A stretch of DNA of 64,000 nucleotides from an uncultured Opitutia bacterium (GTDB lineage: Bacteria; Verrucomicrobiota; Verrucomicrobiia; Opitutales; Opitutaceae): contig CAIQKV010000074.1 of NCBI GenBank assembly GCA_903872505.1, positions 1 through 64,000 of the forward strand. The letters run 5' to 3'. The notes below the pieces were generated by a model. It was not told the origin of the DNA and searched no databases. It worked only from the letters and a program-made list of their open reading frames with translations. Shown in pieces: positions 1-36,230 of the stretch; position 1 is the first letter of the stretch, and the number at the start of each line of letters is the position of its first letter. The translations under genes and the position numbers were made by a program.

Positions 1-407
1 CCTTCGTGGCCCTCGCCGCCAGCGACCTCTGGATCGACCGCTACTACGCGGCCCAGTACGGCTACACGTGGGAGCTCGGCGGCTCGCTGCTGCGCATCGC
101 CTGCTTCGCCGCGGCCCTCGGCATCGGCGCCCTCGTCGCCCGCCGCCGCACCGCGCTCAACGTGGTCAGCGGCGTCCTCGGCTGCTCCATCCTGTTCTAC
201 CTCGCGAGCAACACCGCCGCGTGGCTCGGCGACGCCTACTACGTCAAGACCCTCGCCGGCTGGTGGCAGGCGATGACCATCGGGCACGTCGAGTTCCCGC
301 CGACCCTGTGGTTCTTCCGCAACACGCTCGTCGGCGACCTGCTCTTCACCGGCGTCTTCGCCCTGGTGATGGCCCGCGCCCGCGTGACCCAGGTTCGCAC
401 CGCCTGA
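1..407 (+). CDS. Membrane protein, DUF6580-like (5' truncated by window)
   Basis: The reading frame is open to the window edge, so the N-terminus is missing; only the last ~134 residues are visible. They contain at least three hydrophobic segments (around residues 23-45, 50-72 and 105-122 of the visible part) and an aromatic-rich C-terminal stretch with the pattern FFRNTLVGDLLFTGVF, typical of the small DUF6580 integral membrane family as I remember it. No function is known for that family. The gene is followed at once by a strong rho-independent terminator, so it is the last gene of a plus-strand unit, convergent with the one-carbon operon. Confidence 0.6.
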   Translation, partial: FVALAASDLWIDRYYAAQYGYTWELGGSLLRIACFAAALGIGALVARRRTALNVVSGVLGCSILFYLASNTAAWLGDAYYVKTLAGWWQAMTIGHVEFPPTLWFFRNTLVGDLLFTGVFALVMARARVTQVRTA

Positions 408-429
408 GCTTTTGTCAGTTGTGTGTTCG

Positions 430-460
430 GGGCCGGTCATCGGACCGGCCCTTTTTTTTT
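430..460 (+). terminator. Rho-independent terminator
   Basis: A 9-bp perfect GC-rich stem (430-438 pairs with 443-451, 4-nt loop ATCG) is followed by nine T residues. It ends the plus-strand membrane protein gene and lies only about 15 bp past the stop codon of the convergent homocysteine methyltransferase gene. Confidence 0.9.
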
Positions 461-474
461 GGCCGCGGCGCGCC

Positions 475-2391
475 CTACGGCTGCAGGCCGGCGCGGAGGA
501 CCTCCACCGTGCCGCTGCCGGCGGCGGTGGACATGAGGTAGACGCCCGCCCACCCCTCGCGCACCAGCCAGCGGATCTGCTCCGCGGCGATCTCCCGGCC
601 GGCCTTCGTCTGGTCGGCCACGTTCGGCAGCGCCGCCAGCCGCTGCAGGATCGCATCGGGAATCACCACGCCGGGGACCTGGGCCGCCCGCTGGGCCTGC
701 TCGAAATTGGTCAGCACCATCACCCCGATGAGGAAGGGTTTCCGGCCGCGGAATTTTTCGAGCGGGGCCAGCGCCTCGGGGCGGAAGGCGGGCTGGGTCA
801 TGATGTAGTCCGCGCCGCTGTCGAGTTTCTGTTGCAGCCGGGCCAGCTCACGCGGCATGTCCTGCGCCTCCAGCTCGACGCCGGCGCCGATCGTGAAATG
901 CGTGCGCGGGTCGGCCTGCTTCCCGAGCGGCACGCCGCCGAAGTCCACCCCGGCGTTCAGGCAGGTATGCGTCAGCCGGATCATCGCGATGGAATCCAGG
1001 TCGAACACCGCCGTGGACCGCGGGTAGGTCGGCGACATCTTCGGCGGGTCGCCCGTGACGAAGAGCACGTTGTGGACGCGGTTGGCGTGATAGCCGACCA
1101 GCCGGCTCTGCACGCCCATGACGTTCAGGTCGCGGCCCGTGAAGTGCGGGATGAGTTCCACCGCGTCGCCCGTCGCGGCGGTCCAGCCGAGGCGTTCCCG
1201 GAGCAGGTGGATGTAGTCCCCGGGCGAAATCAGCGGGATGCCCCGCGAGCCGTCGGTGAAATCCACCGCATCGATCAGGCCGCTGGCGGCCAGCCCGGCG
1301 AGGGCCTCCACTTTCCGCGAGATGACGCTGTCGTCCGTCCCGCGCGGCGGCAGCGCCTCGATGCTGACGACAAACTTGCCGTCCTTGAGCTTGCGTGAAA
1401 GGGTGCCGTTACGCCGCTTCTCGGCGTCGCCCGCAGGCGGCAGCGTGCTCGCCACCGCGACGGTCGCGACCCGTTCGCCGGCCGACCGCGACTGCAGGTA
1501 ATTGTGCATCTCTTGGATGTGCGGCGGATGCATCTCGCAGCAGCCGCCCACCAGCCGCACGCCGCGGTCGGACAGGCTGCGGGCCATCTTGCCCGCGAAC
1601 TCCGGGTTGACTGCCGTCATCAGCCGGTTGCCGATGCGCTGGAAGCCACCGGCGTTCGGCATCACGACCAGCTGCAACGCCCCCGAGCGGACCGGCGCGG
1701 TGTCCCGCACCGCGTCCACGAACACGTCGGCATCCCACGGTGCGCAGCAGTTCACCCCCGCCACGGCCACGCCCAGCGCGGCCACGCGGTTGACGAACGT
1801 CACCGGGTCGGGCTCCAGCGGCTGTCCCGCGCTGGCGCCGCGGATCGTCATCTCCGCGATCACCGGCGGCATCCCGGGCAGCGACTTGATCAGGCCGACC
1901 AGCAGTTCCAGCTGCGGCAGGGAGCTGAACGTCTCCAGCAGCAGCGCGTCCGCGCCGGCGGCGGCGAGCGTCTCCAGCTGCTCGCGGTAGCACTCTGCCA
2001 CCGCTTCCGCCGCGGCCAGCGGGCTGGCCGTCGGCCCGACCGAGGCCAGCACGAAGAACGGGCCCGGGGCGCGCGCCTGCGCCTGGTAGGCCGCGATCGC
2101 CCCGCGCGCCAGCTGCACGCCCGCCCGGTTCAGCGCCGCGACGCGACCCTCCAGCCCGAACGGCCGCAGCTGCTGGCGGTTGGCGCCGAAGGTATTCGTC
2201 TTGAGGCAGCGCGCCCCGGCGGCGAGGTACGCGAGGTGAACTTTCTGGATCAGCTCGGGCTGCTCCACGTTGAACGCCTCGTAGACGTGGTTCGTCTCCG
2301 ACAACCGCCCCGTCAGTGTGAACAGGTAGGAACCCATCGCCCCGTCGGCGAGGAGCGGATGGTCCCGGAGCGCGGTCAGGAAATCAGCCAT
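475..2391 (-). CDS. Bifunctional homocysteine S-methyltransferase / methylenetetrahydrofolate reductase
   Basis: Two catalytic modules in one ~638-residue chain, the YitJ-like arrangement. Residues 1-300 are a cobalamin-independent homocysteine methyltransferase barrel with the zinc ligands visible: Cys215 in GVNCCAP and the pair Cys284-Cys285 in GGCCEMHP. Residues ~335-638 are a MetF-type flavin TIM barrel that would interconvert 5,10-methylene-THF and 5-methyl-THF. The ATG at 2391 is preferred because it overlaps the upstream transporter stop by 8 bp (ATG at 2391-2389, TGA at 2386-2384), indicating translational coupling; in-frame starts at 2406 and 2421 are possible. It is the last gene of the C1 operon and duplicates the MTHFR activity encoded by the first. 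It probably yields methionine from a methyl donor while linking to the THF pool. Confidence 0.9.
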   Translation of the reverse strand: MADFLTALRDHPLLADGAMGSYLFTLTGRLSETNHVYEAFNVEQPELIQKVHLAYLAAGARCLKTNTFGANRQQLRPFGLEGRVAALNRAGVQLARGAIAAYQAQARAPGPFFVLASVGPTASPLAAAEAVAECYREQLETLAAAGADALLLETFSSLPQLELLVGLIKSLPGMPPVIAEMTIRGASAGQPLEPDPVTFVNRVAALGVAVAGVNCCAPWDADVFVDAVRDTAPVRSGALQLVVMPNAGGFQRIGNRLMTAVNPEFAGKMARSLSDRGVRLVGGCCEMHPPHIQEMHNYLQSRSAGERVATVAVASTLPPAGDAEKRRNGTLSRKLKDGKFVVSIEALPPRGTDDSVISRKVEALAGLAASGLIDAVDFTDGSRGIPLISPGDYIHLLRERLGWTAATGDAVELIPHFTGRDLNVMGVQSRLVGYHANRVHNVLFVTGDPPKMSPTYPRSTAVFDLDSIAMIRLTHTCLNAGVDFGGVPLGKQADPRTHFTIGAGVELEAQDMPRELARLQQKLDSGADYIMTQPAFRPEALAPLEKFRGRKPFLIGVMVLTNFEQAQRAAQVPGVVIPDAILQRLAALPNVADQTKAGREIAAEQIRWLVREGWAGVYLMSTAAGSGTVEVLRAGLQP

Positions 2392-3751
2392 GCGCGACGG
2401 TTTTTCCATCGCGCGGCACAACAGTCAAAAGCAATGACACAAGAAATCCCGTCAGGAGCAGCCCGGCGCCGAGGGCAAAGGCGTACCCCGACGCCTGCGC
2501 GCCGTAGCGGTCCTTGAGCGCGGCAACGACCTGCGGGCCGACGACCCCCGCCGTGGACCAGGCGGTCAGGATGCAGCCGTAGAGCACCGCCATGCGCGGG
2601 GCCCCGAAGGTGTTGAGGACAAACGACGGCATGATCCCGAAACCGCCGCCGTAGCAGAGCAGCACATAGCAGATCAGGCTGACGAACACCCAGGCGTTGC
2701 CCGTGAGCATGAGCCCGATGAACGCGACCACCTGCGTGGCGAGGAGAATGCGGAAGGTGTTGAGCTGGCCGAGGCGGTCGGAGAGGCCGCCCCAGGCGAA
2801 CCGGCCGATGCCGTTGAACACGGAGCTGACCGCGATCAGGGTCGCCCCGTAGGCCGCGAGCGCGGCGGGCGTCGTGAGCGGGTGGAGTTTGCGCCAGAGG
2901 TCCTGCAGCAGCGGCGACTGGAAGCTGATGATGGCGATGCCGGCGGCGATGTTGCAGAAGAAGACCAGCCACATCAGCACGAACTGCCGGGAACGCAGCG
3001 CGGGCCAGGGCGATTCATCGCCGGCCACGGCCTTCGTCCGGCCCGGCGGGTTGTGGAGGAAGTGGGCCGCCACGAACCCGGTCACCCCGAGGATCGCGCC
3101 GCTCCCGGCGAAGACCAGCGGCAGCGAGCCGTGGAAGGCCGCGGCGAGCGTCGGCGCGATGACCTTGCTCATCAGCAGCGCGCCAAAGCCGAAGCCCATC
3201 ACCACCATGCCGGTGACGAGGCCCTTCTTGTCGGGGAACCATTTCGCGACGGTGGCGACCGGCGTGACATAGCCGAAGCCCAGGCCGATGCCCCCCACCA
3301 CGCCATAGCCGAAATACAGCAGCCCGAGCGATTTCGCCTGCAGCGCGAACGCCGCCAGCACGTGGGCCACGCCGTAGAACAGGCAGCCGATGGCGGCGAG
3401 CTTGCGCGGACCGACCCGCGGGAGCAGCACACCGCCGCCCGCGGCGGCCAGCCCGAGAAAACCGATGGCAAGGCTGAAGGTCCAGGCCACCTGGGAGTTG
3501 GTCCAGCCATACGTCTCCACGAGCGGCTTCTGGAAATAACTCCAGGCATAGACCGAGCCGAGACAGAGCTGCAGCAGCGTGCCCATCACGGCGATCAGCC
3601 AGCGGTTCCGCGGATATGCCCTGACCGGCCGCGGGAGACCCGGCGTCCCCTCCTCCCGGCGCGGCACCACCGCGGGACTGACCAGCGTTGGCTGCTGATC
3701 CGCCGGCGTGAAAGCCAGGACGGGGGGAAGGAGGAGCCGGATGAATTTCAT
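2384..3751 (-). CDS. MFS transporter, oxalate/formate antiporter (OFA) family
   Basis: A ~455-residue, 12-TM major facilitator. The first membrane helix carries the OFA hallmark (LCLGSVYAWSYFQKPL), and a glycine-rich central helix set (GYGVVGGIGLGFGYVTP) is typical of the family. Members move oxalate, formate or other small monocarboxylates; the substrate cannot be read from sequence. Its ATG shares one base with the stop codon of the formate-THF ligase gene (TGATG at 3753-3749), so the two are translationally coupled. That coupling makes formate the leading candidate substrate, but this is inference. A ~45-residue hydrophilic stretch precedes helix 1, so a later start cannot be excluded. Confidence 0.85.
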   Translation of the reverse strand: MKFIRLLLPPVLAFTPADQQPTLVSPAVVPRREEGTPGLPRPVRAYPRNRWLIAVMGTLLQLCLGSVYAWSYFQKPLVETYGWTNSQVAWTFSLAIGFLGLAAAGGGVLLPRVGPRKLAAIGCLFYGVAHVLAAFALQAKSLGLLYFGYGVVGGIGLGFGYVTPVATVAKWFPDKKGLVTGMVVMGFGFGALLMSKVIAPTLAAAFHGSLPLVFAGSGAILGVTGFVAAHFLHNPPGRTKAVAGDESPWPALRSRQFVLMWLVFFCNIAAGIAIISFQSPLLQDLWRKLHPLTTPAALAAYGATLIAVSSVFNGIGRFAWGGLSDRLGQLNTFRILLATQVVAFIGLMLTGNAWVFVSLICYVLLCYGGGFGIMPSFVLNTFGAPRMAVLYGCILTAWSTAGVVGPQVVAALKDRYGAQASGYAFALGAGLLLTGFLVSLLLTVVPRDGKTVAHG

Positions 3752-5436
3752 CAGAAGAGACCCACGATCTGGCCCTCGGCGTCGAGGTCGATGGCCTCGG
3801 CTGCGGGGACCTTGGGCAGGCCGGGCATGGTCATGATCTCGCCGGTGAGGCAGACAATGAAGCCGGCGCCGGCCGAGACGTTGACCTCGCGGATCTCGAC
3901 GTCGAAGCCGGTCGGGCGCCCGCGCAGGTTGGGATCGGTCGAGAACGAGTACTGCGTCTTGGCCATGCAGATCGGAAATTTCCCGTAGCCGGCCTTCTGC
4001 AGGTCCTCGAACTTGGTCTTCACGCGGGCGCTGGCGGTGATGTCCTTCGCGCCGTAGATCTTCTGGGCGATGGTGCGGACCTTCTCCCAGAGCGGCAGGT
4101 CGTCGGGGTAAAGCAGCTTGAACGTCTTGCCCGGTTTCTCCGCGGCCTCGATGACCGCGCGGGCGAGCGCCTCGGCGCCAGCGCCGCCGTCGGCCCAGTG
4201 CGTGGCGGGCACGGCCTTCACGCCGAGCTTGGCGCAGCGTTTCTCGATGACGGCGAACTCCTCGTCCGTGTCGGCGGTGAAGCGGTTGATCGCGACGACC
4301 GCGGGGACGCCGTAGCCGGCGATGTTTTCCAAATGCTTCTCGAGGTTGGCGAGGCCCTTCTCGACCGCGGCGACGTTGGGCGCCTTGAGGTCCTTCTTGT
4401 CCACGCCGCCGTGCATCTTCAGCGCGCGCACGGTGGCGACGATGACGATGGCGTCGGGGGCCAGGCCGGCAAAGCGGCACTTGATGTCGAGGAACTTCTG
4501 GGCGCCGAGGTCGGCGCCGAAGCCCGCCTCGGTGATGGTGTATTCGCCGAGGCTGAGGGCGAGCTTGGTGGCGAGCACGCTGTTGCAGCCGTGGGCGATG
4601 TTGGCAAACGGCCCGCCGTGCACGAACGCGGGGTTGTTCTCCAGCGTCTGCACGAGGTTGGGCGCGAGCGCGTCCCGCAGCAGCACGGCCATCGCGCCGT
4701 GGGCCTTGAGGTCGGCGGCGGTGACGGGCTTCTTTTCCCGCGTGTAGCCGATCACGATCCGGCCGAGCCGCTCGCGGAGTTCCTTGAGATCCTGCGAGAG
4801 GCAGAAGATCGCCATGACCTCGGAGGCGACGGTGATGTCGAAGCCGGACTGGCGGACCACGCCGTTGGCCACGCCGCCCATGCCGACGACGATCTCGCGC
4901 AGGGCGCGGTCGTTCATGTCCATGACGCGCTTCCACACGATGCGGTTCGGGTCGATCCCGAGCGCGTTGCCGTGGGTGAGGTGGTTGTCCACCATCGCCG
5001 AGAGAAGATTGTGGGCGGAGGTGATGGCGTGGAAATCGCCCGTGAAATGAAGGTTGATGTCCTCCATCGGCATGACCTGCGCATAACCGCCGCCGGCCGC
5101 GCCGCCCTTCACGCCAAAGCTGGGCCCGAGCGAGGGCTCGCGGATGCAGACGATCGCCCGCTTGCCGATCCGGTTGAGCGCGTCGGCGAGGCCGACCGTC
5201 GTCGTGGTCTTGCCCTCGCCGGCCGGCGTGGGCGAGATGGCGGTGACGAGCACGAGGCGGCCGCGGGGCTTCGCCAGCTGCTTTTGGTAGAAGCTCAGCC
5301 CGACCTTGGCCTTGTACTTGCCGTAGTGCTCAAGCGCGTCAGCGGGGATCTTGAGCTTTGCGGCGATCTGGTCGATCGGCAGCATTTTTGCCTGGTGGGC
5401 AATTTCGATGTCGGAGGGGACGATTTTTGTGGCCAT
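3751..5436 (-). CDS. fhs: Formate-tetrahydrofolate ligase
   Basis: Full-length 561-residue 10-formyl-THF synthetase: formate + ATP + THF <-> 10-formyl-THF + ADP + Pi, reversible and able to make ATP in the formate-forming direction. The P-loop variant [11 protein letters not shown] lies at residues 70-80, followed by EPSLGPSFG and the conserved [20 protein letters not shown] region; the C-terminal [10 protein letters not shown] signature is present. Length matches the family norm (~555-560). It lies 23 bp after the AcsE-like gene and overlaps the transporter gene downstream. No folD (methylene-THF dehydrogenase/cyclohydrolase) is in the operon, so the missing step must be encoded elsewhere. 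Confidence 0.97.
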
Positions 5437-5459
5437 GGCGGGTACGGGTTGGAGGGGGG

Positions 5460-6326
5460 TTAGCTCGAGTAGTATTCCTGGACGCGCATGATGACGTCGA
5501 AGCCCTCGAGCTTGAGACAGTCGGTGAGGCAGAGCATCGCCGGGTGATCGGGCGCCAGCACCGCGTAATTGCGCTTCACGGAGCCGATGACGTGGTCCAT
5601 GCCGAGCGGCACCGCCATCGTGAGGAACGCGCTTTCCAGCGGGCCCTTGGTGGGCGAGCCATCCGCGCGCTTGGGCGGGAGCATGACGCTGAAATTACTC
5701 AGGCCGACCGACATGTGGACGCCCTTGAGCGCGGGGTCGCCGTGGATCAGGTTGATCGCGCCCATCAGGCAGTGGAACCGGCCCTCGGAATCGGCACCGA
5801 TCGGCGAGATGGCGGGGTCGATGATGCAGTGGTCCACCGGGATGCCGTGCTGGCCCGCCTCGGCCACCAGCTCGCGCGCGGTCTGATGGACCTCGGCGGC
5901 GGTGTGGTTGGGATGGCTGATGCCCTTCTCGACGCGCTCGGAGGCGAGCAGGATCGGCATGAACGGCATGATCTTCGTCAGCCCGAACATCTGGCGCCGG
6001 GTCTGGGCGATCGAGTTCAGGACGGGAATCTTTCCGCCGGCGCGGGCCCGGTCGTAGGCCCGCAGCCCGGCCTCGGCCATGACCGGATCCGGCGTGTCGA
6101 TCGAGAGCGGCTTGGCGGTCACGCCCTGGACGTGCCGCACCATTTCGGCGAGGAACTCCGCGGAGCGCGGACCGACATTGACGTCGATGTAGCCGGCGCC
6201 GCCCAGGTCCTGGGACTTGGCGAGCTCCTTCAGGCCGGCAATGTCACCGGCCTCGAATAATTTGTTGGTCGACGGGACCGAGTCGTTGATCGATTCGCCG
6301 ATGATGGTCAGGTTGGGGATAGGCAT
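5460..6326 (-). CDS. AcsE/MtrH-like methyltetrahydrofolate:corrinoid methyltransferase (pterin-binding fold)
   Basis: A 288-residue single-domain pterin-binding TIM barrel. It starts with TIIGESIND and has DVNVGP (residues 48-53), SIDTPDP (75-81), PVLNSI (101-106), IDPAISP (169-175) and VGLSNFS (207-213); these match the pterin-contact loops of AcsE and the MeTr domain of MetH (Asp48, Asn50, Asp77, Asn104, Asp170), not classical FolP. The size and lack of the sulfonamide-type loops argue against dihydropteroate synthase, although automatic annotation may say that. Expected role: move a methyl group between 5-methyl-THF and a corrinoid protein. No corrinoid protein or reductive activator is in the window. 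It sits 28 bp after the MetF-MetV gene. Confidence 0.82.
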
Positions 6327-6354
6327 GGGTGTTTTCTGTTGAAAGGATAGTGGG

Positions 6355-7992
6355 TCAATTGGCCGGAGTCAGGGTTTTCTTCTCCGGCGGGGGGCCGCCA
6401 TTGCCCGCCGGCGCCGGCTTGGCGGGGGCGGTGTTGTGATGGTGGTCGCGTCCGAGGAAATTATTCGCCCAGCCCGAGGTGCCGCTCAGCGCCGGGTTGG
6501 CGAAGACGGCCGGTCCCTCGATCATGTGCTGCGATTCGCCGTAGTATTTCAGCCGGTCGTAGGCGCGCGACCAGATGCATTCCTTGTCGTCCAGCTCGCA
6601 GCGGCCGTCGGCCGACCCGCCGCAGGGGCCGTTGCGCTGGGTCTTGGAGCACGAGGCGCGCGGGCAGAAGTACCCGGTGTCCGGCAGCGAGCAGTCGCCG
6701 CAATCCTTGCACCCGAACATCAGGGTCTTCGAGAGGTGCTCGATCCCGTGCAAGGCATGGAGCGTCGTGCTGTGCTTGCCCTGCTCGAGGCGGTCGTAGG
6801 TTTTCTGGACCGCCGGAAACAGCTTCTTGCCGGGCGTGAACGCCACCTTGTGCATCAGGCGCGTGAACCGGTAGGCCAGGGTGACCTCGGCGGGCTTGGC
6901 CGGCTGCTCGAGGGACTTCATGTACGCGGCGTTGACCCGCGAGCCGTCGCCGAGCCCGGTCGCCTCGTCCCGCTCAAAGAGGTAGAATTCGTCCGGCTTG
7001 GGATACTGGATCTCGCGCGCGAATTCCTTCCAGTCGTTCGGCCTGTAGCTTTCAGCGAGGTCGATGATCTGCGCGAATGCTTCCGCCTTGTGGATGCCGC
7101 CGAGGTAGCCGGCGGCGAAGCCCATGCCCTTGAACACCGCGAGCTGCTTGGCCGCGAGTTCCGTGAAGAACACCTTTCCCTTGTCCGGCCCGGCGGCGTA
7201 TTTCTCGACCTGCGCGTAGAGCGCGTCGCTCACCACGCAGCCCGGGATCTTGTTCTGGTTGAACATGCGGGCGACGGTCTTGTTGAGCACGTAGACGTTG
7301 CCGACGATGGGCGCGGCGAGGTTCGTCCACTCGAGGAACAGCCGGATTTCATGGAATTTCCGCATGTCGTAGCCGAGCTGCGGGATGACCCATTGCGCGC
7401 CGCACTGGAGCTTGCGGGCCAGCTTGAAGTACTGCGGCATCAGCTCGCGTTCCTGGCGCTTGAACGGCGCCACGGCGCAGCCGGTGAAAAAATTTGTCTT
7501 GGGCAGCCGCTCGGTCTTCCCGTTGGGCTTGGTCACCTCCAGCCCCTCGTTCATGGAGCGCAGCATCGAAATCAGGCTCACCGAATCCAAATCGAACACC
7601 GGCAGCGCCGGGCCGCGGAAACCGGCCACCGGGTAGTCGCCCGTCAGCGCCAGCAGGTTGTTGAAGCCTTCCGCTGCGTAACGCCACGCGGCCGACTCGA
7701 GTCCGTTGCGGTTGAGATCCTTGCAGGTGAGGTGGATGACCACCTCCTTGCCGCGCGGCTTAAGGAGGTTGGCGATCCAGTCCGCCGGGATCATCGGGTT
7801 GCCGCCGGGATTGTCGGTGATGGACACCCACGCGATCCGCGAGTCCGCCGCCAAGCCTTCGCCGAGCTCGACGAGCTTGGGCTTCTGGTCGGGTTCGGGA
7901 ATGCCGCGCGTTGTGACCAACTCGGCGCCGTAGATAAACCGGCCCGAGGTTAGTTGTTCGCGAAAGGAGGAATGAGGGGTGGTTTCGATCAT
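6355..7992 (-). CDS. MetF-MetV fusion: methylenetetrahydrofolate reductase with Cys-rich C-terminal domain
   Basis: About 545 residues. The N-terminal ~300 form the MetF flavin barrel (VVIHLTCKDLNRNGLES, LALTGDYP, LPVFDLDSVS are recognisable). Residues ~425-475 hold a dense cysteine cluster with the pattern CKDCGDC...CPRASC...NGPCGG...RC, the signature of the MTHFR C-terminal (MetV-like) domain, which in acetogens is a separate zinc protein partnering MetF. A proline/histidine-rich tail follows. I choose the ATG at 7992; frame-open sequence upstream to 8217 is not MetF-like and instead forms a structured leader. First enzyme of the C1 operon. Direction (methyl oxidation or methyl-THF synthesis) cannot be told from sequence. 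Confidence 0.88.
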   Translation of the reverse strand: MIETTPHSSFREQLTSGRFIYGAELVTTRGIPEPDQKPKLVELGEGLAADSRIAWVSITDNPGGNPMIPADWIANLLKPRGKEVVIHLTCKDLNRNGLESAAWRYAAEGFNNLLALTGDYPVAGFRGPALPVFDLDSVSLISMLRSMNEGLEVTKPNGKTERLPKTNFFTGCAVAPFKRQERELMPQYFKLARKLQCGAQWVIPQLGYDMRKFHEIRLFLEWTNLAAPIVGNVYVLNKTVARMFNQNKIPGCVVSDALYAQVEKYAAGPDKGKVFFTELAAKQLAVFKGMGFAAGYLGGIHKAEAFAQIIDLAESYRPNDWKEFAREIQYPKPDEFYLFERDEATGLGDGSRVNAAYMKSLEQPAKPAEVTLAYRFTRLMHKVAFTPGKKLFPAVQKTYDRLEQGKHSTTLHALHGIEHLSKTLMFGCKDCGDCSLPDTGYFCPRASCSKTQRNGPCGGSADGRCELDDKECIWSRAYDRLKYYGESQHMIEGPAVFANPALSGTSGWANNFLGRDHHHNTAPAKPAPAGNGGPPPEKKTLTPAN

Positions 7993-8345
7993 GGGGTGTG
8001 ACCACCGCCCGGCCACCTTCTGCCCCAAGGCAGTCAGCGAGGGCCGGTGATTACTCCCAAAAGATACACGAAACCCGCTTGAGGGTCTTGTGTTCTGGAA
8101 CGTTTCTTTGGTGATTCGGTGCAGCAGCAACCACCCTAATATCATCTCTTTGTCCTGTGAATAAGACCGGGCGGGCGGATGGGGAGGACCCCCTTGATGT
8201 TTTCTCCGCCAAACCACACAAACTCACCACCAAAATATACATTAATATCGCCCCCGTGCCGCGAATCCGGCGATTTCGCAGGCGTTGGGGCAAAAACCGC
8301 GTCCACCCCACCCTTAGGCCGGGTAAACTTCCCTTATTGGCAGAG
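7993..8345 (-). promoter_or_regulatory. Leader and promoter region of the C1 operon, with strong predicted RNA structure
   Basis: This 353-bp gene-free stretch separates the regulator from the MetF-MetV gene. An AT-rich patch at 8232-8248 stands out from GC-rich flanks and may hold a promoter. Read on the minus strand, two structures follow. An 11-bp hairpin spans 8093-8066 (6-nt loop, one A-C mismatch, one G-U). A compound stem lies at 8051-8001: bases 8051-8042 (ATCACCGGCC) pair with 8014-8009 and 8004-8001, with a 4-nt bulge, enclosing a smaller CTGCC/GGCAG hairpin at 8033-8020. The GGTGGT at 8006-8001, the only Shine-Dalgarno-like sequence before the ATG at 7992, is inside this stem. It matches no riboswitch class I can name. 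Confidence 0.5.
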
Positions 8346-9140
8346 TTACGACCTGGGTGAACCGCCTGCCCGGGACCTGGCCGCGGGCAGGACCGGCTGG
8401 CCCTTGCCGGCGTCGCGATACTGCTTCGGCGTCGTTTTTTTCAGGTCCTGGAAGACGTGGGTGAAATAACTCTGGTCGCAAAAACCGGAGTCGAGAGCGA
8501 TCGCGGCGACGGTCATTTCGGTCTTCACCAGCAACTCGCAGGCGCGCTCGATGCGCGCCTCACGGAGCAACTCGGAGAAGGAGCGGCCGGTGCGTTCCTT
8601 GAGCAGGTCGGTGAGGTTCCGCGGGGAGATTCCGACCTGGCGGGCGACCTGCACCCGGGTGAGCGTGCCGCTGGCGCCGGTGCGGATGGCCTCCAGGGCC
8701 TTGCGGACCGGCTGCGGGACCTTGCCCGCGCGGCAACGTTCGACCGCGTCAAAAATCCGGAGCACCGCCTCGCGGAGCCAGCGCGACAACTGCTCGTCGT
8801 CGGTGATGGCGGCCAACTCGGTGAGATGCAGATAACGCAGGCCCAGCACCTCGGTCTGCGGCGCACCGGCCTCGACCGCGGCGCGCGACATCATGACCAC
8901 GAGTTCGAGCAGGAGCCCTTTCAGCAGTTCGCTGCGCTCCGCCCCGGCGCTGTAGATGTGGACCAGGATGAGATTGATGATCCGGGTGGCCTGCTTCCGG
9001 TCGCCGCGCTGGATCGAGGCAAGGAGCGCCGGCTCCTCATACAGGTAGAGTTCCCGGATGCGGTCATAGGGCTGGCTGGGATTGACCGCCACCGGCGGAA
9101 AATCATTGGGGTTTTTCGACGGCGATTGCCGGGCAATCAT
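8346..9140 (-). CDS. AraC-family transcriptional regulator (PocR-type linker, no PocR sensor domain)
   Basis: 264 residues. The C-terminal ~100 residues are an AraC/XylS double helix-turn-helix (VARQVGISPRNLTDLLKERT for the first, VAAIALDSGFCDQSYFTHVF for the second). Residues ~25-145 are helical and resemble the linker that follows the PocR sensory domain in PocR-AraC regulators (EEPALLASIQRGDRKQA, LVVMMSRAAVEAGA), but the N-terminal sensor is absent: only ~22 residues precede the linker. It lies directly upstream of, and in the same direction as, the C1 operon, so it is the likely regulator. The inducer is unknown. Its stop codon is 353 bp from the MetF-MetV start. Confidence 0.85.
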   Translation of the reverse strand: MIARQSPSKNPNDFPPVAVNPSQPYDRIRELYLYEEPALLASIQRGDRKQATRIINLILVHIYSAGAERSELLKGLLLELVVMMSRAAVEAGAPQTEVLGLRYLHLTELAAITDDEQLSRWLREAVLRIFDAVERCRAGKVPQPVRKALEAIRTGASGTLTRVQVARQVGISPRNLTDLLKERTGRSFSELLREARIERACELLVKTEMTVAAIALDSGFCDQSYFTHVFQDLKKTTPKQYRDAGKGQPVLPAARSRAGGSPRS

Positions 9141-9844: not shown

Positions 9845-11695
9845 TCAGCCGCCGCGCTCGATGGCCGCCGTCCGCTGCTGGGCGGCGTGCACGCGCCGCA
9901 GGTCGAATTTCTTCCGGCGATCGAAATAGAAGATGCCGTTCTGCTCCTGGTGGACATCAGTGAGCTGCGTGTAGCAGTAGCCGAACATCCGGGGGTTATC
10001 GAGCAGCACGCGGCAGAGTTTTTCGAACCGCGTGTAATACTCCTCGAGCGATTTCGGCCGGTCGCCGTAACCCCACGAGGCGTCGCCCGGCTTGGCGCGC
10101 GGATTCCACCAGATGCCGCCAAACTCGCTCACAAAGTACGGCTGGCCCCGCCACGGCACCGACTCATGGCGGACGGTTTCGGTCCGATAGCCCGTGCCGG
10201 TCATCAACCCGGCGTGGCGCCGGGCGAGCGTTTTCGGGTTCTGGTCGTAGTCGTGGCCGTCATAGACGTCGCTCTCGGGCACGCGGTGGCAGTAGCCCGA
10301 CACGTCGAGCACCGGGCGCGTGGCGTCGTAGAGTTTCGCCGCGAGGAACATCGCGCGCATCATGTCGTCGTGCGTGGTGATGCGCTCGTCGCGCCGGCTC
10401 GCGCTCTCGTTGAGCGGGCACCAGCCGACGATCGCCGGGTGGTTGAAGTCGCGCGACAGCACCTCCAGCCACTGCGTCGCATAGGTCGCGGGGTAGTCGT
10501 GGCCGATGTGGTTGCCCGCGCGGATGTATCCGCCCGCGGCGTCCTGCTGCCAGCCGCGCACCGCCTCCGCGCCCGCCAACCCCCAGTCGCTGAATTCGCC
10601 CCACACGAGGTAGCCGAGCCGATCGGCGTGGTAGAGAAACCGCTCCTCGAACACCTTCTGGTGAAGCCGCGCGCCGTTGAAGCCCGCCGCCAGCGACAGC
10701 TTGATGTCGCGCACGAGCGCGGCGTCGCTCGGCGCGGTCAGGATGCCGTCGGGATAATACCCCTGGTCGAGCACGAGCCGCTGGAAGACCGGCCGGCCGT
10801 TCAGCTTCACCGCAAACCCGTCGATGCTCACGCCGCGCAGGCCGGCATAGCTCTTCACCGCGTCGACAACCTCACCCGAGGCGGTGTCCACCAACTCCAG
10901 TTCGAGATCGTAGAGATGCGGGTCGGCCGGGGACCAGAGCCGCAGCTGTTCCTGCGGCACGCCCAGGTCGAGCCGCGGATAAAATCCCGCGCCGCAGACG
11001 CACTTCGCCTCGCTGATGACCTGGCGTCCGTCGCGCAACCGCGCCCGGTAGGTCAGCCCGGCCTGCGCGCCTGCCACCGGCTGTTCGAGGAGAAACCGCC
11101 GGTTGGCGAGGTCGGGTACGATCTTCGGTCGCAGCAGGTGCGCCCGCTGCGGCACGGGCTCCAGCCACACCGTCTGCCAGATTCCCGTGGTGCGCGTGTA
11201 GTGGCAGCCGGAATTGGCGAACACCCACGACTGCTTGCCGGCGGGGGCGGATTCGCGGGGATTGTCCCGCGCGCGGACGACCAGCGTCACTTTCTTCCCG
11301 GGCACCGCCACCTCGGTGAGGTCGCAGCTGAACGGGGTCATGCCGCCGCGGTGCCGGCCGACCTCCGTGCCGTTGGCCCAGACGAAGGTGTCGTGATCGC
11401 TCGCCTGAAAATGCAGCAGAATCCGCCGGCCGCGCCACGCCCGCGGGATGGTGACCTCGCGGCGGTACCACACGGCGTTGAGATAGTCGGTGTTGCCCAC
11501 CCCCGAGAGCTTCGACTCCGGGCAGAACGGCACGATGATCGCGCCGCGCAGCGGCCGTTCGAGCAGGCCGCGGTCGAGCCCGCTGTCGCCCTGGTCGATC
11601 TCGAACTGCCAGCGGCCGTTGAGGCACAGCCAGTCGCGCCGTACCAACTGCGGGCGGGGATATTCGGGACGGGGCATCGCGGGGAGCTTCGGCAT
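9845..11695 (-). CDS. Glycoside hydrolase family 2 protein (beta-galactosidase/beta-glucuronidase type)
   Basis: About 616 residues without an obvious signal peptide. N-terminal jelly-roll sugar-binding domain (~residues 15-180, LNGRWQFEIDQGDSGLD, GIWQTVWLEP), central Ig-like sandwich (~190-300), then the TIM barrel with the GH2 active-site motifs: Glu430 in WCPLNES as acid/base and Glu524 in YFVSEFGG as nucleophile. Shorter than LacZ (~1,020) and close to the BgaA/uidA-like size class. Substrate is not predictable. The ATG at 11695 fits the domain start; an in-frame ATG at 11725 is possible. A 17-bp sequence 38 bp upstream recurs before the TonB-like gene at 11775-12833. Confidence 0.88.
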   Translation of the reverse strand: MPKLPAMPRPEYPRPQLVRRDWLCLNGRWQFEIDQGDSGLDRGLLERPLRGAIIVPFCPESKLSGVGNTDYLNAVWYRREVTIPRAWRGRRILLHFQASDHDTFVWANGTEVGRHRGGMTPFSCDLTEVAVPGKKVTLVVRARDNPRESAPAGKQSWVFANSGCHYTRTTGIWQTVWLEPVPQRAHLLRPKIVPDLANRRFLLEQPVAGAQAGLTYRARLRDGRQVISEAKCVCGAGFYPRLDLGVPQEQLRLWSPADPHLYDLELELVDTASGEVVDAVKSYAGLRGVSIDGFAVKLNGRPVFQRLVLDQGYYPDGILTAPSDAALVRDIKLSLAAGFNGARLHQKVFEERFLYHADRLGYLVWGEFSDWGLAGAEAVRGWQQDAAGGYIRAGNHIGHDYPATYATQWLEVLSRDFNHPAIVGWCPLNESASRRDERITTHDDMMRAMFLAAKLYDATRPVLDVSGYCHRVPESDVYDGHDYDQNPKTLARRHAGLMTGTGYRTETVRHESVPWRGQPYFVSEFGGIWWNPRAKPGDASWGYGDRPKSLEEYYTRFEKLCRVLLDNPRMFGYCYTQLTDVHQEQNGIFYFDRRKKFDLRRVHAAQQRTAAIERGG

Positions 11696-31912: not shown

Positions 31913-31944
31913 AAAAAACACCCGGTTTCGCCGGGTGTTTTTTT
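31913..31944. terminator. Bidirectional rho-independent terminator
   Basis: A6-CACCCGG-TTTCG-CCGGGTG-T7: a 7-bp GC stem extended by A/T pairing, with A and T runs on both sides. It lies between convergent genes and overlaps the URO-D-family stop codon by 2 bp. Confidence 0.92.
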
Positions 31945-33031
31945 ACCCCACGATCATCTCCCGGAGCCGCGTGGCGTAGTGGCGGAAATTCGGCCACGAG
32001 ACGTCGTCCGGCACATGATGGTCGAGATCGGGGATGTAGCGCCCGGCCGCCAGGGCCGGCCGGATGCGCTCCAGTTCGGCGTCGATCGCCGCCGGGCCAA
32101 GGGCGAGGGCGCGCTTGTCGATCCCACCCATCAGCGCCAGCCCGGGGTATTTCCGCCGGAATACGTTCACATCGGCGCCAGCCGCCACCTCCATGGGGAA
32201 GAGGAAATTGACCCCGGCCTCCAGCATCGGCGGGACAATAAGGTCGGGCTGACCATCGGTGTCCACCGAGATGACCGGGATGCCGTGCTCGCGGGCGAAG
32301 GCGTGGATGCGCCGGTAGCATGGCGCCATGAATTCCCGCCAGTGCGCCGGTGAAATGAGCGGGCCCTGCTTGCCGCACATGTCCTCCCACAGGTGGATCA
32401 AGTCCACCCGCACCTCGCGCACCACGTGGCCGAACACCTCCAAATAGAGCCCCGTCATGTGTTCCATGATCTCGTGAACCAGGCCGGGCTCATCGCAGAA
32501 CGCCACCAGGCACTCCTCGTCGCCCAGCAGCCAGCGCAGCGTGCCGAAGATGCCGCAGTCGGGAAAATGGCCGAGCTGGATCGGGATGCCGGCGGCGGTC
32601 CATGAGCGGCAGGTTTCGCGCCAGTTCGTATCGAGCCGGAGCGGATCGCGGGGATTCAGCCGCTCGTCGCGGTAGCGCCGCCAGTCCGCCGGCGACTTCA
32701 CTGGCCAGTCGAGAAACTCGGACATGCCCTCGATGCCCTTGAGGTTGCGGCGCCGGATGCCCCAGCTGTCGATCGAGGTGACGGAGTCGGCGTCCTCGCT
32801 CACCTTCGCGGTGAAATCCGGCAGCGGGCCCAGGCGCACGGGCACGGCCCGCGGGACCTCGTCCGCGCCGAAATGTGCGCGCACGTCGGCGAAGGACTTG
32901 AACTGTTCGGGCAGACCCTCGTGTTTCCAGCGCTCCCAGGTGGAGGGCCAGATCCACCAATACAGCCAGTAGGGTGGCCGGTCGCGGGGCCGGTCGAGCA
33001 CGGTGGCGAGGAAGCGTTCGCGGGGGGTCAT
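31943..33031 (-). CDS. URO-D superfamily protein (uroporphyrinogen-decarboxylase-like, probably a methyltransferase-type member)
   Basis: 362 residues. TIM-barrel URO-D-fold protein beginning MTPRERFLATVLDRPRDRPPYW. The C-terminal motif RYIPDLDHHVPDDVSWPNF is that of the paralogous URO-D-like group common in Verrucomicrobiota, Planctomycetota and corrinoid methyltransferases (MtaA/MtbA), not of haem-pathway HemE, whose N-terminal RQAGR motif is missing. Substrate unknown. It is the last gene of an operon with a sugar-type ABC importer and threonine ammonia-lyase, 35 bp after the second permease. Confidence 0.8.
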   Translation of the reverse strand: MTPRERFLATVLDRPRDRPPYWLYWWIWPSTWERWKHEGLPEQFKSFADVRAHFGADEVPRAVPVRLGPLPDFTAKVSEDADSVTSIDSWGIRRRNLKGIEGMSEFLDWPVKSPADWRRYRDERLNPRDPLRLDTNWRETCRSWTAAGIPIQLGHFPDCGIFGTLRWLLGDEECLVAFCDEPGLVHEIMEHMTGLYLEVFGHVVREVRVDLIHLWEDMCGKQGPLISPAHWREFMAPCYRRIHAFAREHGIPVISVDTDGQPDLIVPPMLEAGVNFLFPMEVAAGADVNVFRRKYPGLALMGGIDKRALALGPAAIDAELERIRPALAAGRYIPDLDHHVPDDVSWPNFRHYATRLREMIVG

Positions 33032-33066: not shown

Positions 33067-33918
33067 TCAGCCCTTCAGGGCGCCGGCGGACACGCCCTTC
33101 ACGATGTGGCGCTGGAGCAGCAGGTAGAGGATGAGGATGGGCAGGGTCACGAGCACGAGCCCGGCGAACAGCATGCCGTAGTCGGTGTGATATTGCGCGG
33201 TGATGGACAGGTTCGCGAGGCCGAGCGGCAGCGTGCGCGCCTGGTTGGTGGTGTCGCCCCCGGTCAGCATGAAGGCGAAGAAATACTCCTTCCACACGCC
33301 GATGAACTGGAAGATCGCGACGGTCAGGAGACCGGGCCGCGCGAGCGGCAGCAGCACGCGCCAGAACGCCGCCAGTTCCCCGCACCCGTCGATCACCGCC
33401 GCCTCGTAGAGCGAGCGCGGCAGCGAGCGGAAAAAGCCCGCGAGGATGAAGATCGCAAACGGCAGGCCGTTGGCGGTGTAGACGAGGATCAGGCCGAGCT
33501 TCGAGTTGAGCAGGCCGAGTGCGCGCAGCTCAAAGAAGAGCGGAATGATCGAGAGCTGCACGGGGATCATCAGCCCGGAAAGGAACAGCCAGAATACGGC
33601 CTTGCCGAGCGGGTGGTAGAACCGCGCCAGCGCGTAGGCTGCCATCGAGCCCAGGACCAGGATGGCGCCGACCGAGACGCACGTCACCAGCACGGAATTG
33701 AAAAAATAATCGCCAAAATGCGCCTCGCGCCAGGCGTGCCCGTAGTTGTCGAACCGCAGGTCGCCGAACGCCGGCAGGGCGAACGGCGCGTGGGAGATGG
33801 CGGCGTCGGTCTTGAGCGACGAGTACACCATCCACACCATCGGATAGACCACCCAGGCGGCGTAGCCGAGCAGCACCGCGAGGATCAGGCCCGATGAAAC
33901 GTGGCGCGCGCGCTTCAT
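33067..33918 (-). CDS. CUT1-type ABC transporter permease (MalG-like)
   Basis: 283 residues, six membrane segments. The EAA loop LYEAAVIDGCGELAAFWRVLLPL, which docks the ATPase, is intact. MalG/AraQ-like. Its ATG (33918) overlaps the stop of the upstream SBP-permease fusion by 4 bp (ATGA). With that fusion it forms the heterodimeric membrane part of an importer for sugars or similar compounds. No ATPase gene is in the operon; a shared MsmX-like ATPase elsewhere is likely. Confidence 0.92.
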   Translation of the reverse strand: MKRARHVSSGLILAVLLGYAAWVVYPMVWMVYSSLKTDAAISHAPFALPAFGDLRFDNYGHAWREAHFGDYFFNSVLVTCVSVGAILVLGSMAAYALARFYHPLGKAVFWLFLSGLMIPVQLSIIPLFFELRALGLLNSKLGLILVYTANGLPFAIFILAGFFRSLPRSLYEAAVIDGCGELAAFWRVLLPLARPGLLTVAIFQFIGVWKEYFFAFMLTGGDTTNQARTLPLGLANLSITAQYHTDYGMLFAGLVLVTLPILILYLLLQRHIVKGVSAGALKG

Positions 33919-36230
33919 GCGTCCACCGCCTCCCGCCGGAGCCCGCGCATGACCGCCGCGCTGCCGACCAGCACAAACAGGAACATCATCACCGCGATCG
34001 CCGTGGCGCGGCCCACCTGGAATTCCTGGAACATCGTCGTGACCATCAGCGTGCTCAGCGTGTGCGAGGTGGTCCCGGGCTCCTGCGAGGTCAGCAGCCA
34101 GACGAGTTCGAAGGCGTTCAGGCCGCCGATCACGATGAACACGGCGGAAATCACCATCACCTCCCAGATCAGCGGCAGCGTGATGGCGAAAAACTGCCGC
34201 CACGCCGGCGCCCCGTCCATCTCGGCCGCCTCGTACAGCTGCGGGTCGATCCCCTCCATCGCCGCGAGGTAGAGGATGAGGTTAAACCCGCAGGCCATCC
34301 AGATGTAGATGGGGATGAGCGAGCCGTAGAGGTGCGCGGGCGAGAGCCAGGGATGCGACGCGAAGGAGCGGAGCCAGTCGTTGTCGAGCAGGTTGCCCGC
34401 CGCGACGAACGCGGCGTTGGCGATGCCGCTGTGCGGCTCGTAGGCGCTCATCCAGAGCAGCGTGGCGGCGATCCCGCCGATCAAATTTGGAAACAGGAAC
34501 AGCGCGCGAAACGTTTTCGCGCCCCAGACCCCGCGGTGAATCAGGCAGGCGAAGAACAGCGACAACGGCACGACGACCAGCGCCGGCACGATCATCAGGT
34601 AGAGATTGTTGCCCAGTGCGGCCCAGAACGCGTCGCTCTCCAGCAGGAGCGACTTGAAGTTCCGCCATCCGACCCAGGTCCGCGGCCCGATGCCGTCCCA
34701 GCCGGTGAACGCGCCCACGAACGAGGCCAGCCCGGGCAGCACGACCAGTGCGCCGAACAGCACCAGCGCCGGCCCGACAAAGCCCAGCGCGAACCCCCCG
34801 CGCAGCGGGGCGAAGTAGCCGCCCTCGATGGCCGCCTCCTCCCGCGCGCTCCGCCGGCGGCGCCAGCGCCAGCCCAGCCAGAGCACCGCGGCCGTCATCG
34901 CCGCCAGCAGGCCGCCCGCAGCCCAGGGGTGGCGGACATTGACGCTGGATGGATCTGCCGCCCGGGCGCGCTCGGCCGTCACCACGGCCTCGAGTCTTTC
35001 CCCAAATTGCTGCGCTGTGATCCGCCCGGAGAACAATTGCTGCCGCGCGTCGATGAGGGTCTGCGCATAGCCCGGCGGCACCAGCATGGTCAGCGGGGCG
35101 CTGTACGTGGCCCGGGCGGCGGCGATGAGCCGCCCCGCATCGCGCATTTGCGGGGAAAACCGGTCGAGCGGCACGCCGGCCACGGCCACCGGCGAGTCGA
35201 TGGCGCGCACCGCCGCGTCCGCCCGCTCGCGGGAGGTCAGGTAGCGCAGGAAATCCACCGTGAGCCGCTCCCGCACCGGATCGCCGCTGGCGAACACGAA
35301 GAAGAAATCGCTGCCCGACTGGATCGTGCTGGGATCCGCCACGCCGTCGGCAAACACCGGCAGGTTGACCGTGCCCAGCTCGAAGCCGGGCGGAAACTTG
35401 CCCTCCATCTCGTGCACCATCCACGTGCCGGAAAAATTCATCGCACAGCGGCCCTCGAGGAAAGCCAGCTGCGCCGCGGTGTGGGTCATGCCCTCCCAGC
35501 CCGCGACCATGGATTCGTTCGTGATCCGCCGCGCGACTTCCACCGCCCGGTAAAACTGCGGGTTCGCGCGGGTGCCGGCCTGGTAGTCCAGGTAGTCGCG
35601 CCAGCCCGCGGGCCCGGTCAGGTTGTAATAGCCCGCGTTGATGATCATGTCGCCGTAGCGCATGTAGACGCCGGGCAGGCTGGCGGGCGCGATGCCGGCC
35701 CGGCGCATCTGGGCGGCGAGCGCGAAGAACTCGTCCCAGGTCCGGGGCGGGCTCCAGCCGTGGGCGCGGAACAGGCCCTTGTTGTAGAACAACACCCAGG
35801 CGGCGTTCATCAGCGGCAGGCCGTAGTGGGCCCGGCCCACCTGCCAGCTGGCGAGCGCGCCCGGGATGAACGTGTCGCCCCAGCGCGCATCGCCCTCCCA
35901 GTTCGGCCCCGCGAGGTAGGGCGTCAGGTCCAGCATCTTGCCCGCCCGGATCAGGTTCGGCCAGTAGAGCGCGGCAGTGGTGGCGTCGGGATAATCGCCG
36001 CTGAGCACGCGGACCCGGACCTTGTCCCAGATCCGCGGGTCGCCGTAGAGGTTAACCTTCACCCCGGGGCGCAGCGCCTCGAAGTGGCGCGCGCTGTCCT
36101 CGAAGAACGCCGTCCCGAAGCCGCCGGAAAAAATCGGCACGTCGATCTCCGTGACGGCGGAAAGCCGCAGCGCCGCCAGCAGGAAGGCGAGGACGCCCGG
36201 CAGGAGGCGGACGTGGGACCGGAGCGTCAT
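33915..36230 (-). CDS. Solute-binding protein fused to CUT1-type ABC permease (MalE-MalF-like fusion)
   Basis: 771 residues in one frame. Residues 1-26: signal sequence; ~27-425: family-1 extracellular solute-binding protein (TEIDVPIFSGGFGTAFFED, GLPLMNAAWVLFYNKGLF, TWDEFFALAAQMRRAG); 437-456: a hydrophobic segment that would cross the membrane, followed by the positive stretch RWRRRRSAREE; ~480-765: a MalF-like permease with six hydrophobic segments and EAA loop LYEAAEMDGAPAWRQFFAITLPL (666-688). No stop, frameshift or start-like sequence lies between the two halves. It overlaps genes on both sides by 4 bp. The solute is unknown. Confidence 0.9.
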   Translation of the reverse strand: MTLRSHVRLLPGVLAFLLAALRLSAVTEIDVPIFSGGFGTAFFEDSARHFEALRPGVKVNLYGDPRIWDKVRVRVLSGDYPDATTAALYWPNLIRAGKMLDLTPYLAGPNWEGDARWGDTFIPGALASWQVGRAHYGLPLMNAAWVLFYNKGLFRAHGWSPPRTWDEFFALAAQMRRAGIAPASLPGVYMRYGDMIINAGYYNLTGPAGWRDYLDYQAGTRANPQFYRAVEVARRITNESMVAGWEGMTHTAAQLAFLEGRCAMNFSGTWMVHEMEGKFPPGFELGTVNLPVFADGVADPSTIQSGSDFFFVFASGDPVRERLTVDFLRYLTSRERADAAVRAIDSPVAVAGVPLDRFSPQMRDAGRLIAAARATYSAPLTMLVPPGYAQTLIDARQQLFSGRITAQQFGERLEAVVTAERARAADPSSVNVRHPWAAGGLLAAMTAAVLWLGWRWRRRRSAREEAAIEGGYFAPLRGGFALGFVGPALVLFGALVVLPGLASFVGAFTGWDGIGPRTWVGWRNFKSLLLESDAFWAALGNNLYLMIVPALVVVPLSLFFACLIHRGVWGAKTFRALFLFPNLIGGIAATLLWMSAYEPHSGIANAAFVAAGNLLDNDWLRSFASHPWLSPAHLYGSLIPIYIWMACGFNLILYLAAMEGIDPQLYEAAEMDGAPAWRQFFAITLPLIWEVMVISAVFIVIGGLNAFELVWLLTSQEPGTTSHTLSTLMVTTMFQEFQVGRATAIAVMMFLFVLVGSAAVMRGLRREAVDA

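Follow-up and report, generated by a model that had tools for sequence, protein, structure and literature searches.

Six genes of one-carbon metabolism in an uncultured Opitutia bacterium: probable folate branch of a larger corrinoid-dependent demethylation system

The first 64,000 nucleotides of contig CAIQKV010000074.1 of an uncultured Opitutia bacterium from the family Opitutaceae (assembly GCA_903872505.1), hereafter the window, carry a one-carbon operon near the contig end at which the window begins (C, L and G numbers are our handles for contigs, loci and genomes; this contig is C74). Gene calling in the window places all six operon genes, co-directional, on the minus strand (Table 1): they encode an AraC-family protein, a fusion of MetF and MetV (MetF-V), an AcsE-like methyltransferase, Fhs, a transporter of the major facilitator superfamily (MFS), and a bifunctional homocysteine S-methyltransferase (HMT) and MTHFR protein. 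A preliminary description, made from the sequence alone, had reported six co-directional genes with the last three coupled by overlaps, and both observations are borne out: the fhs stop codon and the ATG of the MFS gene have one base in common (TGATG at 3751), and the MFS and HMT-MTHFR genes overlap near 2384-2409. The other intergenic gaps measure 28 bases (metF-V/acsE), 23 bases (acsE/fhs) and 353 bases (araC/metF-V). Comparison with a related locus (L007) shows that the start of metF-V is better set at 7992 than at 8217. The AraC-family gene possibly encodes the regulator of the operon, and neither a riboswitch nor a tRNA was matched in the window at default thresholds.

Table 1. Positions of the operon genes and of other features of the window and of contig C28.
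Feature	Position	Strand	Supporting match or remark
AraC-family regulator	8346..9140	-	HTH_18 82.3 bits, HTH_AraC 56.3 bits
MetF-MetV fusion, C-terminal Cys-rich MetV domain	6355..7992	-	Pfam MTHFR and DUF5981
Predicted AcsE/MeTr-like methyl-corrinoid:tetrahydrofolate methyltransferase (MT-II)	5460..6326	-	Pterin_bind; PRK07535 MeTr
Fhs, formate-tetrahydrofolate ligase	3751..5436	-	FTHFS PF01268 914 bits; NF010030 929, cut-off 652
MFS transporter, OFA/monocarboxylate type	2384..3751	-	MFS_1 family match
HMT-MTHFR bifunctional protein	475..2409	-	S-methyl_trans 183.6, MTHFR 84.8
C-terminal part of a 189-amino-acid conserved open reading frame (c12), cut by the contig start	3..407	+	N-terminal part at the end of C28
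GH2-type glycosidase (beta-glucuronidase/galactosidase-like), upstream of the operon	9845..11695	-	PRK10150 145.7 bits, cut-off 544; cluster c9
UroD-superfamily protein	31943..33031	-	URO-D 48.6 bits; adjoins an ABC transporter (33067-36230) and a PALP enzyme (36227-37441)
Corrinoid protein, 212 amino acids	C28:93641-94279		Best NCBIfam match MtgC-type, 190 bits, cut-off 370

The best NCBIfam match of the AcsE-like protein is PRK07535 MeTr (112 bits, cut-off 259); NF040758 gives 53.5 bits (cut-off 370), and because these scores fall far under the AcsE cut-offs of that database, the protein appears to be a distant subfamily and is called AcsE-like instead of AcsE. The idea that it could be a FolP was prompted by the absence of a FolP-like match in its own genome and in that of a relative of the same genus (G066, 100% complete, 30 contigs). 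This identification, which the preliminary description had named as counting against its reading, was rejected: G129 lacks a FolP match as well as an AcsE match, G135, G157 and G162 have both, and residues, tree and fold tell the two proteins apart. The residues D77, N104, D170 and N211 (the Asn of GLSN), which we take to be the folate-site Asp and Asn residues with roles in MeTr, are kept in 25/25 AcsE-like rows and 8/8 MetH rows, and N211 is absent from FolP in 3/3 rows (three of the four FolP sequences fetched; L098 gave no row). One PDB title among the structure matches names an Asn199Ala mutant. The tree, reconstructed without a mis-cut reading frame (L072) and a long branch (L073), sets FolP apart at 100/100 and unites the AcsE rows at only 89/61; these were not one group in the first tree, which still included both sequences. 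The AlphaFold2 model (pLDDT 93.5) matches the MetH folate domain (Z 29.8, root-mean-square deviation (rmsd) 2.2, 267 aligned), to AcsE (Z 27.5, rmsd 2.6, 234 aligned) and to the O-demethylation MT-II 4o1e (Z 27.4, rmsd 2.4, 235 aligned, 30% identity); in VIA, the Z scores span 26.7-29.8 for the MetH folate domain, AcsE and 4o1e/4o1f/4o0q, with some MetH chains at 22.9-24.8 and FolP at about 19. Judging from model and residues, the AcsE-like protein looks able to work like AcsE or MtgA. The lack of a FolP (DHPS) match in the own genome, G066, G126, G047, G095 and G129, two of them rated 100% complete, is notable since these genomes should need folate, and either folate auxotrophy or a missed enzyme would account for it.

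Scanning genome contigs with the AcsE-like protein retrieved 32 loci, several of which end at contig ends. They derive mostly from metagenome-assembled genomes labelled Opitutae, Opitutaceae, Verrucomicrobia or Akkermansiaceae, the others being a single Lentisphaerae locus, a single Thermoguttaceae locus (55% identity) and two that bear the labels Piscinibacter and Burkholderiaceae (41-43%). The gene directly upstream of acsE is metF-V in 26/32 loci and the one directly downstream is fhs in 28/32, so that the gene order, which the preliminary description had wished to see compared in neighbour genomes, is kept beyond chance. An OFA-type MFS gene follows fhs in 13/32 loci, HMT-MTHFR is among the two genes 3' of fhs in 14/32, and the araC cluster gene stands directly upstream of metF-V in 7/32, besides a broken match in L023; the GH2-type glycosidase recurs upstream of the operon in six of the 32 and in the window. 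On these neighbour counts, the conserved core is metFV-acsE-fhs, and the regulator, the transporter and HMT-MTHFR are frequent additions. In L007 and L008, a cluster of UroD-family genes and a corrinoid protein runs convergently towards the operon, with DUF1638 behind it; L007 additionally shows the start of an activase gene, and in L004, L005, L009, L010 and L014 the UroD and HMT part of this cluster is present before the fetched stretch ends. In the Piscinibacter and Burkholderiaceae loci (L032, L033), a related acsE is accompanied by genes that match corrinoid proteins, RACo and UroD, and L032 has a 487-amino-acid gene with a MetV match at its start followed by an MTHFR match; these loci perhaps represent the same system in proteobacteria.

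The corrinoid protein that the preliminary description considered missing is present, with an activase and candidate UroD genes for the methyl-donor enzyme that it also missed, on the apparently adjoining contig C28. Read towards the window, this island comprises seven open reading frames matching our in-house UroD profile (L050:12768-14045 without a Pfam match), a RACo/AcsV-like activase in divergent orientation (337 bits to AcsV, cut-off 800), DUF1638, the B12-binding corrinoid protein (Table 1), three UroDs, a UroD-like protein without a Pfam match, an HMT and a further UroD, which makes about a dozen UroD-superfamily proteins. The last 29 bases of C28 are exactly the first 29 of the window, and joining them restores the reading frame c12. 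Because the same 29-mer recurs on C108, the overlap alone is no proof of the join; C108, nevertheless, has its own full copy of c12, unlike both pieces (213/227 and 450/465 positions equal), and in G066 the operon and the island share one contig, with DUF1638 uncalled in the island. By elimination and synteny, C28 likely joins the window, and acsE would then lie ~12 kb from the corrinoid gene. The island and the operon together hold all four components, namely a candidate methyltransferase for the methyl donor (MT-I), the corrinoid protein, MT-II and the activase; their linkage depends on the probable join in the own genome and is found on one contig in G066.

A single copy of the corrinoid gene was initially assumed and then dropped, after a second copy emerged with its N-terminal half at the end of C38 (L052) and its C-terminal end at the start of C108 (L086). 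Where it can be read, its product is identical to the C28 protein (L050, L051), and a second c12 copy follows it; the assembly breaks fall inside both repeats, the corrinoid gene and c12. G066 has one stand-alone corrinoid match besides MetH. Next on C108 come a UroD and a c10-type gene oriented towards c12, and there may be a second demethylation island at this place. Two proteins of 361-372 amino acids (L051:1916-3001, cluster c10, and L086:2042-3160) are UroD-like by the in-house profile; the former has no Pfam match, and cluster c10 is kept beside the operon in seven relatives. DUF1638 recurs beside corrinoid and activase genes (L050:16730-17470, L007:19916-20656, L008, L026, L077 and L082).

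The genome as a whole (3.55 Mb, 94.8% complete) supplies further parts. FolD, also listed as missing in the preliminary description, is encoded once, on C107 and unlinked to the operon. MttB (PF06253) has no match in this genome, and the UroD-family proteins would take the place of the MttB-type methyltransferases that the preliminary description had suggested looking for. CdhC/ACS beta (PF03598) has no match either at this completeness, and therefore no synthesis of acetyl-CoA is expected. A formate dehydrogenase alpha subunit (677, cut-off 666; the reading frame is cut by the locus end) adjoins a NuoF-like gene (258 bits, cut-off 559), suggesting a probable NAD-type enzyme, and there are three COX1 matches. 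By gene content, the organism would be an oxygen-respiring non-acetogen able to take methyl-tetrahydrofolate (methyl-THF) to formate and CO2. The transporter of the operon stays under all curated cut-offs in the NCBIfam scan (SfMCT 309.9, cut-off 320), those of the OFA formate/oxalate models included (TIGR00890 177.5, cut-off 374.85; TIGR04259 152.1, cut-off 335), and its top-scoring model is an L-lactate transporter; together with the formate dehydrogenase, this leaves the formate export formerly proposed weakened. On C73, a DesA/LigM-like protein of the GcvT fold is encoded in one block, on a single strand, with a UroD and another MetF-V (L064 = C73:7000-13053, 202-4208), which makes the earlier analogy with Sphingobium an apt one. 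The DesA/LigM-like protein scores below the cut-offs (DesA 553.7/800 bits, LigM 513.2/580). LigM needs no corrinoid, and the C73 protein is likely a corrinoid-free O-demethylase feeding the same folate pathway. Elsewhere (L001, C82:35519-39235), MetH looks split, with a 374-amino-acid HMT-like gene directly upstream of its folate/B12 part.

The UroD family has 46 matches in this genome, 45 of them over the cut-off and the best one HemE-like. An alignment of 52 UroD-family proteins from this genome (HemE included) has His at the first zinc position in 40/52, Asp at the second in 27/52 and Cys there in 21/52, and Cys at the third only in 5/52, these five having His-Cys-Cys. In the available part of PMC10418091, His-Cys-Cys is tied to S-methyl substrates and a carboxylate or lost ligands to O-methyl substrates; by this rule most of the UroDs would be O-type, which is suggestive only. 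The model of one of them (L050:18359-19402, pLDDT 91.8) has the UroD fold, with Z 25.1 to UroD (rmsd 3.3, 299 aligned) and 22.8 to MtaA, and neither an O-demethylase MT-I nor CdmB is among the 50 structure matches listed, a listing that leaves room for both. CdmB was found by profile search at 1.7e-16, and a phmmer search at 1e-3 among solved structures with the sampled UroD L051:3891-4982 finds only MtaA.

In the scan of 134 UroD neighbours, the best 25 of 160 families include MFS_1 (10), PhyH (5), MFS_2 (4) and GFO_IDH_MocA (4). Several UroD blocks contain genes reminiscent of sugar-acid metabolism: a UxuA-like protein and a YjhG/YagF-like xylonate dehydratase in L063, a galactarate dehydratase-like protein, RhaT, a sugar MFS and a heparinase N domain in L055, and a DHDPS/KDG-aldolase-like protein in L054; the four block mates scanned against NCBIfam, which come from these three loci, are all under the cut-offs. 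Since most UroDs have no full His-Cys-Cys, sugar-acid genes are among their neighbours and a GH2 glycosidase stands upstream of the operon, we favour O-methyl sugars or sugar acids as candidate, still unproven, substrates, and methoxyaromatics are possible ones. Within three genes of UroDs, the own genome also encodes five PhyH-family dioxygenases (PF05721), which could be oxygen-dependent counterparts for the same substrates.

The association between AcsE and UroD extends over the order. In 177 genomes, with AcsE matched at 1e-20 and UroD counts taken as loose candidates, 8/177 have an AcsE match and all eight have at least 5 UroD candidates (5 to 56), a number reached by 19 of the 169 genomes without AcsE (Mann-Whitney p = 2e-6, not corrected for relatedness). 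For G066, an initial loose search gave 33 UroD candidates, of which 11 were scored. In five of six AcsE genomes from other genera (G047, G095, G126, G135 and G162, three of them from other families), metF-V is adjacent to acsE, and the acsE stretch of the same five holds corrinoid and UroD genes, together with an activase in 4/5.

From this gene content, gene order and co-occurrence, and from the fold and residues of the MT-II, we consider it probable that the operon serves a corrinoid-dependent demethylation system by passing its methyl groups to folate and oxidizing them. UroD methyltransferases (MT-I) would transfer the methyl group of a donor to a Co(I)-corrinoid protein, giving a methylated shared carrier, from which the AcsE-like MT-II would pass it to tetrahydrofolate. 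MetF-V would oxidize methyl-THF to methylene-THF, the unlinked FolD would carry this to formyl-THF, and Fhs would release formate with the formation of ATP; formate would then be oxidized to CO2 by the probable NAD-type formate dehydrogenase or exported by the MFS transporter. Methyl groups could also be diverted to methionine, by the HMT next to the corrinoid gene and by that of the operon. The reactions, their direction, the substrate and the regulation are what we infer; the observations in favour are the C28 island with its corrinoid protein, activase, DUF1638, HMT and UroDs, likely joined to the window, its counterparts in G066, L007, L008 and other genera, the numerous UroDs and the FolD of a genome in which MttB and CdhC/ACS have no match, the MT-II features, and the precedent of MtgBCD with MetF2 in Ruegeria. 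The outline given in the preliminary description, a Wood-Ljungdahl methyl branch run oxidatively in a non-acetogen, is thus supported by the lack of a CdhC/ACS match, and its revision concerns the missing parts, MttB and formate export.

Several observations weigh against this interpretation. The contig joins in the own genome are inferred, and the region is repetitive, with second copies of c12 and of the corrinoid gene. In the fetched flanks, corrinoid, RACo or DUF1638 genes appear in only 7/32 loci, and in 14/32 if any of these or UroD is counted. Genomes of the same order that are rich in UroD exist without an AcsE match at 1e-20 (G013, G129, G147 and G063, with 12-15 candidates), and therefore the UroD expansion is wider than the AcsE system. 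No fhs was matched in the acsE stretches read in other genera, which limits the Fhs link to near relatives, and G157 has corrinoid and RACo genes with acsE and no metF-V or UroD match. The neighbours of the UroDs are mixed, with ankyrin, pyruvate kinase, Na/Ca exchanger and peptidase genes pointing nowhere, and five UroDs do possess His-Cys-Cys, with Cys at the second site in 21/52.

Three other explanations deserve consideration. The AcsE-like protein, the corrinoid protein and HMT could constitute a split methionine synthase, supplied by MetF-V and Fhs with methyl-THF made from formate, the UroDs being accessory. HMT-MTHFR, which scores 414 bits against NF006396 (cut-off 453) and is YitJ-like, closes the operon, and another HMT lies in the island; moreover, MtgC and MtgD of Ruegeria pomeroyi take part in methionine synthesis as well as in the demethylation of glycine betaine, according to the available text of PMC12478193. 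Such a module would, however, need neither 46 UroDs nor a MetF-V paralogue beside a LigM-like demethylase, in a genome where a MetH-type gene is also present, immediately preceded by an HMT-like gene, and we regard it as unlikely, although methionine synthesis and demethylation can coexist. The corrinoid system could instead salvage methyl-sulphur or methyl-selenium compounds, the function suggested for mlp gene clusters of type 1, whose core is likewise UroD, corrinoid protein and activase (PMC10418091, in the part available), and His-Cys-Cys in 5/52 UroDs would suit this function. The third Cys is absent in 47/52, however, and the Asp at the second site in 27/52 also speaks against it; in addition, mlp clusters are defined in that text as having no THF methylase within 20 kb, a distance well above that from acsE to the corrinoid gene if the contigs join. 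Salvage of this kind seems improbable.

The steps of Fhs, FolD, MetF-V and AcsE are reversible, so the pathway could also assimilate formate, with AcsE giving the methyl group to an acceptor, e.g., the corrinoid, and the transporter, of OFA/monocarboxylate type, importing formate or another monocarboxylate. Nevertheless, there is no CdhC/ACS match to consume methyl-corrinoid, the UroD-corrinoid island suits demethylation better, and the formate dehydrogenase and three COX1 matches suit an oxidative, respiring cell, making a reductive direction very unlikely.

Returning to demethylation, a more specific form of it, which we advance tentatively and hold to be rather doubtful as a whole, is a hub-and-spoke metabolism in respiring Opitutae: ~45 UroDs, scattered in the genome and partly adjoining genes for sugar-acid transport and dehydratases, would each act on a methylated sugar or sugar acid of its own, such as the 4-O-methylglucuronate found in plant xylan or the O-methylated sugars in algal polysaccharides. 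All would load the O-methyl group on a common corrinoid protein, and the operon would oxidize what they deliver. To our knowledge, corrinoid O-demethylation of sugars would be a new reaction class. If the demethylation reading is right, heterotrophic Verrucomicrobiota would invest heavily in corrinoid methyl use (46 UroD matches in 3.55 Mb), which is so far known above all from acetogens, methanogens and proteobacteria that degrade betaine, and methoxy groups from plant or algal matter would supply energy to cells that have oxidases for oxygen. Since the dozens of MT-I candidates, all uncharacterised, apparently use a common carrier, one corrinoid protein and one MT-II would suffice to assay their substrates.

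Each known system resembles this one in part; the papers cited for them were available as partial texts, and the likenesses are limited to those. In Ruegeria pomeroyi and other roseobacters, MtgBCD(E) and MetF2 likewise include a stand-alone pterin-binding MT-II, a corrinoid protein and an Hcy subunit, with a MetF paralogue downstream of MT-II, and in this marine bacterium methyl-THF is thought to be oxidized through MetF2 (PMC12478193). However, its MT-I is an MttB-family protein (pfam06253), a family with no match in the present genome, in which the 46 MT-I candidates are of UroD type, and MetF is here fused to MetV, unlike in Ruegeria. The O-demethylases of anaerobes (MtvABC, OdmB, VdmB, MtoABCD) and the chloromethane system CdmBCA share the UroD MT-I, the corrinoid protein, an AcsE/MtgA-type MT-II and the activase (PMC8630106, PMC13222342), whereas no acetogen or methanogen core was found here and one corrinoid sequence, in two gene copies, faces dozens of UroDs. 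If the UroDs are MT-I, 46 matches with one carrier sequence would exceed the 23 MT-I enzymes of A. woodii (PMC10284823) and the 26 methyltransferase systems of A. dehalogenans (PMC13222342). The Wood-Ljungdahl methyl branch of Moorella and Acetobacterium has MetF-V, an AcsE-type MT-II and Fhs in common with the operon, and differs in that CdhC/ACS beta has no match in this genome; Acetobacterium oxidizes methyl-THF to formate, and the fhs2-fdhC pair of Acetobacterium woodii offers a parallel for the transporter (PMC10284823). In ligM-metF-ligH of Sphingobium SYK-6, methyl-THF is fed to MetF, FolD and LigH (Fhs), as here (PMC6888825), although LigM is not among the six operon genes and the DesA/LigM-like gene is unlinked, on C73.

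Type 1 mlp gene clusters (Kountz and Balskus) have several UroDs, a corrinoid protein and a Ram-type activase in common with the island (PMC10418091). They are delimited by the lack of a THF methylase within 20 kb and by co-directional components, whereas the present system includes a linked THF methyltransferase and a divergent activase, and most of its zinc sites deviate from His-Cys-Cys. Among the literature matches listed, no description of a corrinoid demethylation system of this sort in Verrucomicrobia or Opitutae was found, which is weak evidence of novelty, and the available parts of two environmental surveys (PMC10805028, PMC11264602) do not report it in Verrucomicrobia. In this reading, the system reaches beyond the six genes first described.

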